This document shows positions 3,377-22,482 of a DNA stretch of 22,697 nt, piece by piece. The position numbers were made by a program, and so were the translations under genes. The stretch is taken from positions 1 through 22,697 of IMG/VR virus record IMGVR_UViG_3300036760_000136. One strand, 5' to 3'. This stretch comes from a virus. The number at the start of each line of letters is the position of its first letter. Position 1 is the stretch's first letter. A model generated the notes under the pieces. It saw only the letters and a program-made list of their open reading frames with translations, was not told where the DNA came from and ran no database searches.

Positions 3377-3853
3377 ATGTTAGCGACAAATGATATTTAT
3401 TGGTTAGCCGGTTTTCTCGACGGAGAAGGATGTTTCTCTATGTGGGGACAAACACCAAACATATCTGTTGCGCAAAAGGAAATATGGCCTCTTGAGAAAG
3501 TACATAAACTTATTGGTGGAAAATTCTATAAATTCAAGAATTGGGGCACTAATAAAGAAATATTTTATAATTCATTGCATATTTCAGGTAAACGCGCCAT
3601 TGGCTTGATGATGACGCTTTATTCTTTATTATCTCCAAGACGACAAGCAAAGATTGAAGAAATCATTGCTAAGTGGAAATCAATACCAAGGCGCGGAGAA
3701 ACCAATAGAGCAAAAACTCATTGCAAGCGTGGCCATGAATTTACACATGAAAATACCTATCTAAAATTAAAAGGTGGGCGCGATTGTAAAACTTGTCTGG
3801 ATATGCATAGGACAAATTATATTTTGAAACAACGTACATTACAGATAGCTTAA
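3377..3853 (+). CDS. Free-standing LAGLIDADG homing endonuclease with zinc-finger tail
   Basis: A 158-residue protein whose N-terminus carries one LAGLIDADG motif, WLAGFLDGEGCF (residues 9-20), with the catalytic acidic residue position filled (D15/E17). A basic linker follows (RRQAKIEEIIAKW, then KSIPRRGETNR). The C-terminus is a separate module with C116, H120, C137 and C140 (CKRGHEFT...CKTC), like the zinc-binding tail seen on many phage HNH endonucleases. A single LAGLIDADG motif implies action as a homodimer. Known members cut intron-less or gene-less alleles and spread by repair. The gene is visibly AT-richer than its neighbours and lacks a clear ribosome site, so it probably depends on coupling to the capsid stop 6 nt upstream. 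It is not inside an intron or intein: both flanking genes are intact. Family call firm, cut site unknown. Confidence 0.85.
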   Translation: MLATNDIYWLAGFLDGEGCFSMWGQTPNISVAQKEIWPLEKVHKLIGGKFYKFKNWGTNKEIFYNSLHISGKRAIGLMMTLYSLLSPRRQAKIEEIIAKWKSIPRRGETNRAKTHCKRGHEFTHENTYLKLKGGRDCKTCLDMHRTNYILKQRTLQIA

Positions 3854-3868
3854 CGTGGAGAATTAAAC

Positions 3869-4372
3869 ATGGCTGTCGCTAATACCAAGTCCACCCACGT
3901 TACCAATGCCGATGCTAACCCGCTGGCGTTGACCAACAGTTATATTGCCAAGGGCCAAATATACGAAGTTGTTGGCACGGTGGAAACCTTGGCGGCTGAT
4001 GATGCTTCTTCGGTCTATCGCATGGCGCGTGTTCCGTCCAATGCCCGGATTACTTCAATCCTGCTGGGGACGGATGCCATTAGCGGGGCTACCACCTCCG
4101 ATATAGGCGTTTACCAAACCGCTGCGAATGGCGGGGCGATTGTGGGCACTGGCGATCAGTTTGCAACGGACGTGAATCTTTCCGCTGCAGCTACCGTTTT
4201 CACAGAAGATTTGTTGGAGGCTACCGCTACCGATATTGCCAAGGTCGAATACCGCCTGTGGGAAATGCTGGCATTGACGGTAGACCCGATGCGATATTAC
4301 GATATTTGCGTCACCGTAAACGATGTGACGGCGGCAGGTACAATATCCATGAAATTGAAATATGTGGTTTAA
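3869..4372 (+). CDS. Capsid decoration/cement-type protein, copy 1
   Basis: A 167-residue Ala/Thr/Val-rich protein with alternating beta-strand-like segments (RMARVPSNARITSILLGTDA, then SDIGVYQTAANGG) and a conserved end, VTVNDVTAAGTISMKLKY. No signal, membrane segment or coiled coil. It lies just downstream of the capsid gene, apart from the inserted endonuclease, where BPP-1-like phages encode their cement protein, so a decoration role is the best inference; I do not recognise the family firmly. ATG 3869 follows GTGGAG with an 8 nt gap. It is a close paralogue of the next gene, about two thirds identical by eye over the full length, and shares an exact 51 nt tract with it. Confidence 0.7.
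   Translation: MAVANTKSTHVTNADANPLALTNSYIAKGQIYEVVGTVETLAADDASSVYRMARVPSNARITSILLGTDAISGATTSDIGVYQTAANGGAIVGTGDQFATDVNLSAAATVFTEDLLEATATDIAKVEYRLWEMLALTVDPMRYYDICVTVNDVTAAGTISMKLKYVV
3970..4020 (+). repeat. 51-nt exact direct repeat, copy 1
   Basis: Identical base for base to 4489-4539 and in the same codon register of the two decoration-type paralogues (offset 519, equal to the distance between their starts). It encodes the 17 residues VGTVETLAADDASSVYR. The flanking coding sequence differs at many synonymous positions, so the tract stands out against the background. Confidence 0.97.
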
Positions 4373-4387
4373 TACGAGGATAAAATA

Positions 4388-4888
4388 ATGGCTGTTGCTA
4401 ACACTAAATCAACTTTCATCACTAATGCCGATGCAACTCCGACGGCATTGACCAGTGATTATATCGCCAAAGGCCCATTGTATGAGGCTGTTGGCACGGT
4501 GGAAACCTTGGCGGCTGATGATGCTTCTTCGGTCTATCGTTTATGTCGCATACCCAGCAATGCGCGCATTACCAGTATTTTACTGGCTTCAGACGCCATT
4601 ACTGGGGCGAGTTCTTGTGATATAGGTATTTACAAGACCGCCGCGAATGGCGGGGCGGTGGTTGACGCAGATTATTACGCTACGGCAACCGACATTTCCA
4701 GCGCCACGGTCTTTACCGAACAACTTAATCTTGCGACCGTAACAGACATTGACAAGGTTGAAAAGAGGGTCTGGGAAGGGGCCGCCGTATTGAGTGCCGA
4801 TCCCATGATTGATTATGATGTATGCGTGACGGTGAATGATGTGACCGCCGCCGGGACGATTTCCATGAAAGTCAAATACACGGTGTAA
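4388..4888 (+). CDS. Capsid decoration/cement-type protein, copy 2
   Basis: A 166-residue paralogue of the preceding gene, colinear with it apart from small gaps near residues 92-105 and 131. MAVANTKST and VTVNDVTAAGTISMK are shared, while the codons for them differ at many synonymous sites, so the duplication is old. Differences cluster in the middle (DADYYATATDISSA versus the longer TGDQFATDVNLSAA version) and may mark exposed loops. Ribosome site GAGGA at 4376-4380. Two cysteines (C53 and C77) are absent from copy 1 at those places. Role inferred: a second decoration subunit, perhaps for different capsid positions. Not identified by a database family. Confidence 0.7.
   Translation: MAVANTKSTFITNADATPTALTSDYIAKGPLYEAVGTVETLAADDASSVYRLCRIPSNARITSILLASDAITGASSCDIGIYKTAANGGAVVDADYYATATDISSATVFTEQLNLATVTDIDKVEKRVWEGAAVLSADPMIDYDVCVTVNDVTAAGTISMKVKYTV
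4489..4539 (+). repeat. 51-nt exact direct repeat, copy 2
   Basis: Second copy of the tract at 3970-4020. A shorter shared run of 15 nt (GCGAATGGCGGGGCG) lies further downstream in both genes, but most other aligned positions have diverged. Confidence 0.97.
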
Positions 4889-20856: not shown

Positions 20857-21243
20857 ATGATCGTGAACGAATCTCATTTTTTCAAGACCAGCGAGTTGAC
20901 CTGTCATTGCGGATGCGGGAAGGCGCTCATGGTTAAAAGCTTTATGGACAAGCTGGATAGCATCCGCATGTCTTTTGCCATGCCACTGCGGTTGTCCAGC
21001 GCCTATCGGTGTCCTGAACATAATAAATCAGTATCTGCTACCGGGGATTCCGGCCCACACACGACCGGGCGGGCGGTTGATGTTATCATTTCAGGGCGCG
21101 AAGCCTTTCTTTTAATGGATATTTCTATCACCTTGGGCATGACCGGCATTGGGGTCAAGCAACATGGCCCCCACACGGGGCGCTATTTGCATCTCGATGA
21201 TTTGGAAACTGAAGGACGACCGTGGGTATGGTCGTATCCATGA
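20857..21243 (+). CDS. M15-type peptidase endolysin
   Basis: A 128-residue peptidoglycan peptidase that should cut cross-link peptides at lysis. It matches the Peptidase_M15_3 layout: FFKTSELTCHCGCG (residues 8-21), LRLSSAYRCPEHNKSV (45-60), SGPHTTGRAVDV with zinc ligands H68 and D75, and RYLHLDDL with H112. I choose ATG 20857, 1 nt after the preceding stop, because the longer reading overlaps the membrane-protein gene in another frame. No signal peptide, so release needs a holin. Full length for the family. Confidence 0.9.
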   Translation: MIVNESHFFKTSELTCHCGCGKALMVKSFMDKLDSIRMSFAMPLRLSSAYRCPEHNKSVSATGDSGPHTTGRAVDVIISGREAFLLMDISITLGMTGIGVKQHGPHTGRYLHLDDLETEGRPWVWSYP

Positions 21244-21244
21244 C

Positions 21245-21460
21245 ATGGTTGAATGGCTTATTGTCCTGACCCTGATTTTTAACGATGGGCACACGGAGCA
21301 GGCCCAAGTGCCGGGGGTATACGCAACCCCCTTAGTCTGCCAGAAGCGGGCCTTAAGCAAGGAATTTGATAACGAGTTGATTAAGCAGTACAGTGGCAAA
21401 GGCATCGGATTGGTGCAGAAGAAGTGCGATCAGCGTCCGGTAAAATTCAAAGAGTCATAG
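21245..21460 (+). CDS. Small secreted or membrane-anchored protein, lysis region
   Basis: A 71-residue protein starting at ATG 21245, 1 nt after the endolysin stop; longer readings would overlap the endolysin widely. N-terminal VEWLIVLTLIF is hydrophobic but short (about 11 residues), then FNDGHTEQAQVPGVYATPLV, with cysteines at 37 and 61. Proteins with a W-L-hydrophobic start, then a short strand region and an R/C-rich middle occur in phage lysis regions without a known job. A periplasmic or lipid-facing location is inferred. No clear ribosome site, so it is likely coupled. Confidence 0.5.
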   Translation: MVEWLIVLTLIFNDGHTEQAQVPGVYATPLVCQKRALSKEFDNELIKQYSGKGIGLVQKKCDQRPVKFKES

Positions 21461-21475
21461 ACTCAGGAGATTATT

Positions 21476-21664
21476 ATGGCAACATCAATAGAAGTAAAAA
21501 CTGGTTGGCAAACGACCGAATTTTGGGGCACGGTGGCTGCCGCATTAATACCGTTACTCAACCAGGCGTTCGGTTGGCATCTGCCGGTTGAGGTCATGGT
21601 CAGCGTAGCCGGTTCCGTGGCCGCTTATGTCGTTTCACGCGGCTGGGTCAAGGCGAGTTCGTGA
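21476..21664 (+). CDS. Holin-like two-span membrane protein
   Basis: A 62-residue protein with two membrane-compatible segments: GTVAAALIPLLNQAF (about 18-32) and EVMVSVAGSVAAYVV (about 39-53), linked by GWHLP. The N-terminal VKTGWQTTEFW is the start I know from small phage proteins labelled holin-like. Strong ribosome site AGGAG 7 nt before ATG. Its place next to endolysin and spanins supports holin, the protein that triggers membrane opening. An alternative is a small antiholin. Confidence 0.65.
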   Translation: MATSIEVKTGWQTTEFWGTVAAALIPLLNQAFGWHLPVEVMVSVAGSVAAYVVSRGWVKASS

Positions 21665-21804
21665 TTAGCTGGTGGTGGCTTCCTGTCGCATTTCTGTGCG
21701 GTATTTTTTCCCACGAAGCCCACGTCGAGCGCGTGAAACGCAAGATAGAAGAAGCCGAAACGGTGAATCATATGCGCGAATTATATAGCAGGTTCGCAAA
21801 ATGA
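21661..21804 (+). CDS. MISWWWL peptide 1: signal-anchored small protein
   Basis: A 47-residue protein starting with GTG 21661 (GTGA overlap with the stop of the holin-like gene) and AAGGCGAG 4-7 nt upstream. After MISWWWLPVAFLCGIF (one membrane segment), the rest is a charged helix (HVERVKRKIEEAETVNHMRE). Topology of one N-terminal span plus periplasmic helix resembles an inner-membrane spanin, but shorter. Its first six codons after the start repeat in the next ORF. Too short for most automatic ORF cut-offs. Confidence 0.6.
   Translation: MISWWWLPVAFLCGIFSHEAHVERVKRKIEEAETVNHMRELYSRFAK
21662..21680 (+). repeat. 19-nt repeat at MISWWWL starts, copy 1
   Basis: TGATTAGCTGGTGGTGGCT is identical to 21802-21820, covering the overlap of the previous stop with the start and the next six codons. 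After a 3-nt indel, TCCTG also matches. Confidence 0.95.
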
Positions 21805-21899
21805 TTAGCTGGTGGTGGCTGGCTCCTGATTTCATTGCCGGGATGGCAACAGGCATTATATTAATCGTTGCCATGGGCGCGTTAATGGATTGGCGATGA
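21801..21899 (+). CDS. MISWWWL peptide 2: tiny membrane protein
   Basis: A 32-residue protein, MISWWWLAPDFIAGMATGII then LIVAMGALMDWR, starting at ATG 21801 (ATGA overlap). Nearly all of it is one membrane span; ribosome site AGCAGG about 8 nt upstream. Ends with TGA overlapping the next ATG (21896-21899). Chain of coupled starts makes expression likely. Could be a lysis regulator or antiholin. Confidence 0.5.
   Translation: MISWWWLAPDFIAGMATGIILIVAMGALMDWR
21802..21820 (+). repeat. 19-nt repeat at MISWWWL starts, copy 2
   Basis: Second copy of the tract at 21662-21680, 140 nt downstream; here the start codon is ATG instead of GTG. Confidence 0.95.
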
Positions 21900-22117
21900 C
21901 CGCTTACTGGCCTTACTTTGGCGCTTTCCTTCTTGTGGGTGGTCTTCTCTGGATCGCTATCAGGTACGGCAGGTTGGCCGAACGAGACGAAACCAAGGAT
22001 AAATTACTGGAGGTCAAGCAAGATGCCAAAACGATTGATGAAAAGGTTGCTCGTATGTCTGCTATTGATAAACGTAAGTGGCTGCGCAGGCATCGAAACA
22101 GCCGCAACGATAATTAG
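21896..22117 (+). CDS. Inner-membrane spanin-like protein (Rz-type)
   Basis: A 73-residue protein with an N-terminal membrane anchor (YFGAFLLVGGLLWIAI, about 7-22) and a charged helix (RLAERDETKDKLLEVKQDAK, then TIDEKVARMSAIDK) ending in an Arg/Asn-rich tail. That is the Rz (i-spanin) layout, though shorter than lambda Rz (153). The lipoprotein gene that overlaps it in another frame supports this. Spanins join inner and outer membranes and disrupt the outer membrane at the end of lysis. ATG 21896 is coupled to the previous stop; the in-frame TTG 21890 is less likely. Confidence 0.65.
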   Translation: MTAYWPYFGAFLLVGGLLWIAIRYGRLAERDETKDKLLEVKQDAKTIDEKVARMSAIDKRKWLRRHRNSRNDN

Positions 22118-22328
22118 CGCAGGCAGCAGTACGGCGCTCTTTACCAATAAACTCTGCCTCTTTAAGTGGTGGTGCGAGGAAAAGTTTTTGTATACAGCGG
22201 AATGTGCCTACGATTCAGAGCATCTATTTTCTGATGATGCAGTTGCCGGGATGGATGAAGAAGATTTGAACTGGTCGGTGGCGCATAACGAAAAATACAA
22301 TGCGTTCTGCAAAAAAATCACTCCATAA
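22023..22328 (+). CDS. Outer-membrane spanin-like lipoprotein (Rz1-type), overlapping the Rz-like gene
   Basis: A 101-residue lipoprotein in another frame, starting inside the Rz-like gene (95 nt overlap, 22023-22117). MPKRLMKRLLVCLLLINVSG ends in a lipobox VSG|C with C21 as lipid site. ATG 22023 has GGAGG (22009-22013) 9 nt upstream; ATG 22038 is a second option. The overlapping layout is classic for Rz/Rz1. Unlike typical Rz1 it is not proline-rich: the mature part is about 81 residues with four further cysteines (45, 51, 61, 96), an acidic middle (AVAGMDEEDLNW) and aromatic residues. It could be a spanin of an unusual type or another lipoprotein. Confidence 0.7.
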   Translation: MPKRLMKRLLVCLLLINVSGCAGIETAATIISAGSSTALFTNKLCLFKWWCEEKFLYTAECAYDSEHLFSDDAVAGMDEEDLNWSVAHNEKYNAFCKKITP

Positions 22329-22482
22329 TACTATAACAGAACCATGCCCGCATTGCGGGGCAATAAATCCATGTTGGTTTACTGGCAAGGATGGTGATAA
22401 TGGTTTTGAGTGCAACAAATGCCAAAACGTCTACATCGTAGAACAGGCTGTCAGGCTTGAGGAATTATGCAATGAAAAGTAA
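22300..22482 (+). CDS. Small zinc-ribbon protein
   Basis: A 60-residue protein with CPHC (16-19), a further C25 and CNKC (38-41), a treble-clef/zinc-ribbon arrangement. ATG 22300 is the only plausible start and overlaps the lipoprotein gene by 29 nt in another frame; no ribosome site is visible. The C-terminal helix is VEQAVRLEELCNEK. Such proteins bind nucleic acid or proteins in phages; role here unknown. It overlaps the next gene by 11 nt. Confidence 0.6.
   Translation: MRSAKKSLHNTITEPCPHCGAINPCWFTGKDGDNGFECNKCQNVYIVEQAVRLEELCNEK

Follow-up and report, generated by a model that had tools for sequence, protein, structure and literature searches.

Two very short open reading frames lie side by side in the lysis region of a viral record and begin with the same seven residues, MISWWWL. 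What do these frames encode, and how did adjacent genes come to start alike? The window, meaning the whole stretch of DNA that was analyzed, is the complete 22,697-base record IMGVR_UViG_3300036760_000136 of IMG/VR, which is classified as linear and as a probable fragment and has the lysis region at its right end. Tail tubular protein B shares 53% identity with its counterpart in an uncultured Manatee Spring podovirus and, for the most part, 38–46% with those of HTVC010P-type pelagiphages, which places the phage broadly among podoviruses of this kind. The only close relative, L064 (99%), stops near window position 17.8 kb, before the lysis cassette, and the MISWWW motif is absent from its record. 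Elsewhere in the window, a 158-residue ORF at 3377–3853, homing-type endonuclease-like by eye, separates a capsid-like gene from the structural genes that follow it.

All features of the cassette are on the + strand. The gene at 20857–21243 is firmly identified, from its profile matches, as an M15 endolysin (Peptidase_M15_3; Pfam PF08291, E 1.3e-13; PHROG 894 endolysin, E 1.8e-17), and its product has no N-terminal membrane segment. In canonical lysis, an endolysin of this type needs a holin, which is thus expected. The ORF list gives a 71-residue protein with a hydrophobic N-terminus at 21245–21460; it has no match in Pfam or NCBIfam, and in PHROGs it matches a single family without assigned function (E 0.15). 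At 21476–21664 lies a 62-residue holin-like protein with two hydrophobic segments by hydropathy, for which both profile matches are weak (PHROG 34682 holin, E 0.012; Pfam Phage_holin_10, E 0.045). Downstream of the two short frames, an i-spanin-like protein with an N-terminal helix and a charged region (21896–22117; PHROG 1026 Rz-like spanin, E 0.011, weak) is followed by an o-spanin-like lipoprotein (22023–22328; PHROG 1275 Rz-like spanin, E 0.031, weak). The overlap of the latter gene with the former in another frame, and its lipobox VSGC, are seen directly. The holin-like and spanin-like identities are thus weakly supported, by weak profile matches plus architecture, and on these assignments the two frames do lie where the initial annotation placed them, between holin-like and spanin-like genes. 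A 60-residue Cys-rich ORF (22300–22482) overlaps the end of the o-spanin-like gene; its resemblance to Lar restriction-alleviation proteins is weak, as the match to TIGR03655 (E 0.0083) falls short of the cut-off.

Related cassettes were sought at the DNA and protein levels. A distant blastn of 21476–22328 against phage records gave no DNA match, and the holin-like, i-spanin-like and o-spanin-like proteins, used as queries for related loci, gave no relatives. Relatives of the endolysin were found at 59 loci, and the downstream genes differ in all 16 that were inspected; the lysis cassettes of MW202898 and HTVC028P also differ from that of the window. Beside one endolysin relative (L008, 3372–3455), a hydrophobic ORF of 27 residues overlaps the stop of the endolysin gene, and more small ORFs, with hydrophobic segments at their N-termini, come after it.

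ORF1 (21661–21804, GTG start, 47 residues, MISWWWLPVAFLCGIFSHEAHVERVKRKIEEAETVNHMRELYSRFAK) is predicted to encode a short N-terminal hydrophobic segment and a charged helix, and ORF2 (21801–21899, ATG start, 32 residues, MISWWWLAPDFIAGMATGIILIVAMGALMDWR) a single hydrophobic helix. The sequence and the ORF list agree with the initial annotation on coordinates, frames and lengths, and both frames are indeed smaller than the usual ORF cut-offs. The holin-like stop overlaps the ORF1 start as GTGA, the ORF1 stop overlaps the ORF2 start as ATGA, both as described, and the ORF2 stop overlaps the i-spanin-like start (ATG at 21896) as ATGA. These three 4-nt overlaps tile the gap between the holin-like and i-spanin-like genes completely. 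Of 5000 dinucleotide-shuffled versions of the gap, 109 (2.2%) are likewise tiled from end to end when overlaps of 1–4 nt are allowed, so the tiling is moderate evidence and not extreme. By codon usage, the annotated frame beats the five others for both ORFs, weakly, by 2.5–2.6 bits each, scores that 5–8% of off-frame segments match. No family match was found for either ORF in PHROGs, Pfam or NCBIfam, and tblastn searches of phage sequences, with the i-spanin-like protein and both ORFs as queries, returned nothing significant. Taken together, the evidence that both are real genes is moderate: supportive, not strong. The frequency of tiling in shuffled gaps and the weak coding signal would fit chance open frames with no product. 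We consider this very unlikely, as tiling, hydrophobic helices, the best codon frame and the rare common start occur together.

The two starts are identical at the DNA level. One copy of TGATTAGCTGGTGGTGGCT (21662–21680) spans the holin-like stop and the ORF1 start; the other (21802–21820) spans the ORF1 stop and the ORF2 start, so the 19 nt reported as common to both starts are exact. The window contains no further TGATTAGCTGGTGGTGGCT site with up to three mismatches (0.01 expected; none of 100 shuffles contained two sites). Only three exact direct repeats of at least 16 nt are present in the window, the others being in a tandem gene duplication (the longest) and inside a repetitive protein. 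The number of 19-nt repeats expected under a uniform model is about 0.001; the repeat exceeds chance. In the same record, the adjacent 167- and 166-residue proteins at 3869–4372 and 4388–4888 are clear tandem paralogues with a 51-nt exact repeat in common. The 19-nt repeat might also be read as a Chi-like site, GCTGGTGG.

Much of the DNA identity follows from the MISWWWL sequence itself, because Trp has one codon. The remaining choices also agree: the Ile and Ser codons (ATTAGC in both copies) and the first two Leu bases match, and the probability of obtaining the same 19 nt twice from phage codon usage, given MISWWWL twice, is about 0.03. Past the 19 nt, DNA similarity is at the level of chance (p 0.45) and the protein score is below the shuffled mean, consistent with the earlier description of two different bodies after a common start. 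The proposal that a short duplication placed one N-terminal anchor before both bodies is supported: local copying is likely, given the rarity of the start and the codon agreement, and the similarity is limited to 19 nt.

Is the MISWWWL start used by other viruses? Among 2.9 million viral contigs, MISWWW[L/F] occurs in 18 stretches, some of which are not ORFs. In six or more of these contigs, unrelated to one another, it opens ORFs that are short and hydrophobic. All seven such ORFs of 30–50 residues score at least 1.58 in their best 15-residue hydropathy window, compared with 14% of control ORFs scoring at least 1.6. The mini-ORFs at L067, L068, L069, L070, L073/L079, L074 and L078 (31–44 residues) resemble ORF1 and ORF2 in start and hydrophobic helix, with Phe instead of Leu at residue 7 in L074. 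Unlike the pair in the window, these IMG/VR mini-ORFs are single copies, use other Ser codons (AGC in none of eight distinct loci inspected) and are mostly not next to lysis genes. Several of the peptides recurrently but weakly match model positions 37–75 of PHROG 1374, of unknown function; ORF2 matches it at E 6.1, which is not significant, and ORF1 not at all. The initial annotation suggested a search for MISWWW twins in related phages, and we found none elsewhere among the matches listed. WWW twins are absent from the 59 endolysin-relative loci. A twin-pattern scan of viral contigs gave one match, which is out of frame and thus attributed to chance. In two looser, non-exhaustive scans, 31 of the 273 matches listed (fetched loci) passed the frame filter, and none was pair-like on reading.

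These data bear on the origin of the common start. One possibility is that the two genes converged on a start favored in mini-membrane proteins, an account compatible with any reading of function. The same start occurs with other Ser codons in at least six unrelated contigs, Trp is fixed to one codon, and no residual similarity links the two bodies, all as convergence would have it. Nevertheless, we regard convergence as quite unlikely: a start this rare would have to arise in two adjacent genes, adjacent twins were not found elsewhere among the scan matches listed, and the Ile, Ser and first two Leu bases coincide (P = 0.03). We favor copying of the start, locally or by short-homology recombination, because the start is rare and the synonymous sites are identical.

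The same survey also bears on function. By eye, the neighbors of MISWWW[L/F] ORFs in other viruses are nucleotide-metabolism, terminase and unassigned genes; only one ORF adjoins a likely cell-wall hydrolase and several are away from lysis genes. At L073 (291) and L079 (4696), a 31-residue MISWWWL ORF lies just 5′ of a 303-residue protein, cell-wall peptidase-like by eye, and of a 70-residue ORF, holin-like by eye. Since similar mini-ORFs are mostly not next to lysis genes, the two proteins may have other membrane roles. Both proteins could be translated small membrane proteins that merely reside in the late operon, acting for example in superinfection exclusion or in inhibition of a host membrane protein. 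We consider this somewhat unlikely, given the position between holin-like and spanin-like genes and the coupling overlaps on both sides.

In single-sequence AlphaFold2 models, ORF1 is predicted to form one helix over residues 6–45 (mean pLDDT 84.8) and ORF2 one helix over residues 4–29 (mean pLDDT 91.2). The hydrophobic segment of ORF1 comprises residues 2–17 and is short, with a 19-residue hydropathy maximum of 1.03. It is followed by RVKRK, and 16 of the last 31 residues are R, K, H, D or E. By positive-inside reasoning from RVKRK, ORF1 may be N-out/C-in, which would place the charged helix on the cytoplasmic side. The ORF2 protein is predicted to be nearly all membrane helix and contains GMATG, a GxxxG motif.

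Are both proteins functional? Recombination between the repeats would, from the sequence, delete exactly 140 nt and leave the coupling intact. Only one of the two might be a functional gene; the other would then have arisen passively, through duplication of the 19 nt or insertion of a 140-bp segment bounded by the repeat. In one of 36 pairs compared, without correction, ORF2 resembles the 31-residue L073 peptide over its full length (z 3.4, p 0.004), and ORF1 has no clear resemblance to other MISWWW[L/F] peptides, a hint that ORF2 may be older than ORF1. Against this account, each frame stays open up to a precise 4-nt overlap, both codon scores are positive, and the long charged helix of ORF1 is unlike random sequence. 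We judge it unlikely; the feature is real, and probably both are functional mini-genes.

We suggest, with a probability of roughly 0.4, that ORF1 and ORF2 are translationally coupled accessory lysis mini-proteins that tune the holin, their start having been copied locally. Each would insert in the inner membrane through one N-terminal Trp-rich helix, ORF1 as N-out/C-in with a cytoplasmic charged helix and ORF2 as a nearly bare helix packing through GxxxG. Together they would adjust the time at which the two-helix holin encoded upstream opens the membrane to the M15 endolysin. About 19 nt, stop/start junction included, would have been copied or recombined, keeping each gene coupled to the one before it. 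The sequence, the overlaps, the repeat and the sudden loss of similarity are direct observations; the helices are predicted, and we infer translation, topology, lysis role and copying. This proposal is supported by the complete tiling, the best codon frame, the predicted helices, the lysis context and the hydrophobic MISWWW[L/F] ORFs elsewhere. Counted against it are the small coding signal, the lack of a family match, the short hydrophobic segment of ORF1, the larger size (79–145 residues) and Gram-positive-host phages of its analogues, and the several MISWWW[L/F] ORFs away from lysis genes. It and the accounts given above (a non-lysis role, a single functional gene, chance frames) are mutually alternative readings of function; convergence concerns the origin of the start only.

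Competition of the holin/antiholin type through the common anchor, suggested earlier, is one possibility only, because ORF1 and ORF2 are unlike beyond the start. Furthermore, MISWWW[L/F] recurs in unrelated phages, at several non-lysis loci, so a common start does not have to imply pairing of the two proteins. A mixed helical complex formed by the identical Trp-rich N-termini, giving a two-gene timer in which one protein would act on its partner or on the holin as a block or a trigger, is highly improbable in our estimate. In that case, ORF1 could also be lost or gained through the repeat with translational coupling intact. What is new here is the pair itself with its unusual common start; the general kind of protein is already known. 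The rare start suggests one origin route for coupled mini-genes, its recurrence provides a handle for finding similar mini-proteins missed by annotation, and the pair is compact enough for clean testing.

Several known lysis components were compared with the pair. A dual-start antiholin, as in lambda S and phage 21 S, was rejected: ORF1 and ORF2 are genes separate from 21476–21664, and the holin-like gene starts ATGGCAACA with no second start nearby. Class II pinholins need two TMDs, and one helix is predicted for each protein. An i-spanin identity was also rejected, as neither has an Rz-like or lysis family match in PHROGs, Pfam or NCBIfam. Small one-helix proteins are common in lysis cassettes, and few have been tested. 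Those described in Gordonia phage cassettes in the relevant part of PMC9671378 include ten one-helix N-out/C-in proteins, arrayed with other TM genes, with a short outer N-terminus and a cytoplasmic tail of 25–46% RKHDE. They differ from ORF1 in size (79–145 residues) and in their Gram-positive hosts, and that part of the source makes no mention of a duplicated start. LysF1b of mycobacteriophages Girr and NormanBulbieJr is a 124-residue protein with one N-terminal TMD, a 22-residue outer segment and an about 50% charged tail, encoded with a −4 bp ATGA overlap after a two-TMD protein; its deletion causes a lysis defect, and it is required for efficient lysis (PMC13056207). ORF1, at 47 residues and with a putative outer segment of a few residues, is much smaller, and the LysF1b phages have a Gram-positive host. 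The function of LysF1b is shown, and ORF1 is likened to it by anatomy. In that anatomy the two correspond: a single N-terminal hydrophobic helix, a highly charged helical tail and a 4-nt overlap, GTGA here, directly 3′ of a two-TMD holin-like gene. The N-out/C-in topology predicted for LysF1b may also apply to ORF1, by positive-inside reasoning. By analogy with LysF1b and the Gordonia one-helix proteins, ORF1, and perhaps ORF2, may tune the holin.
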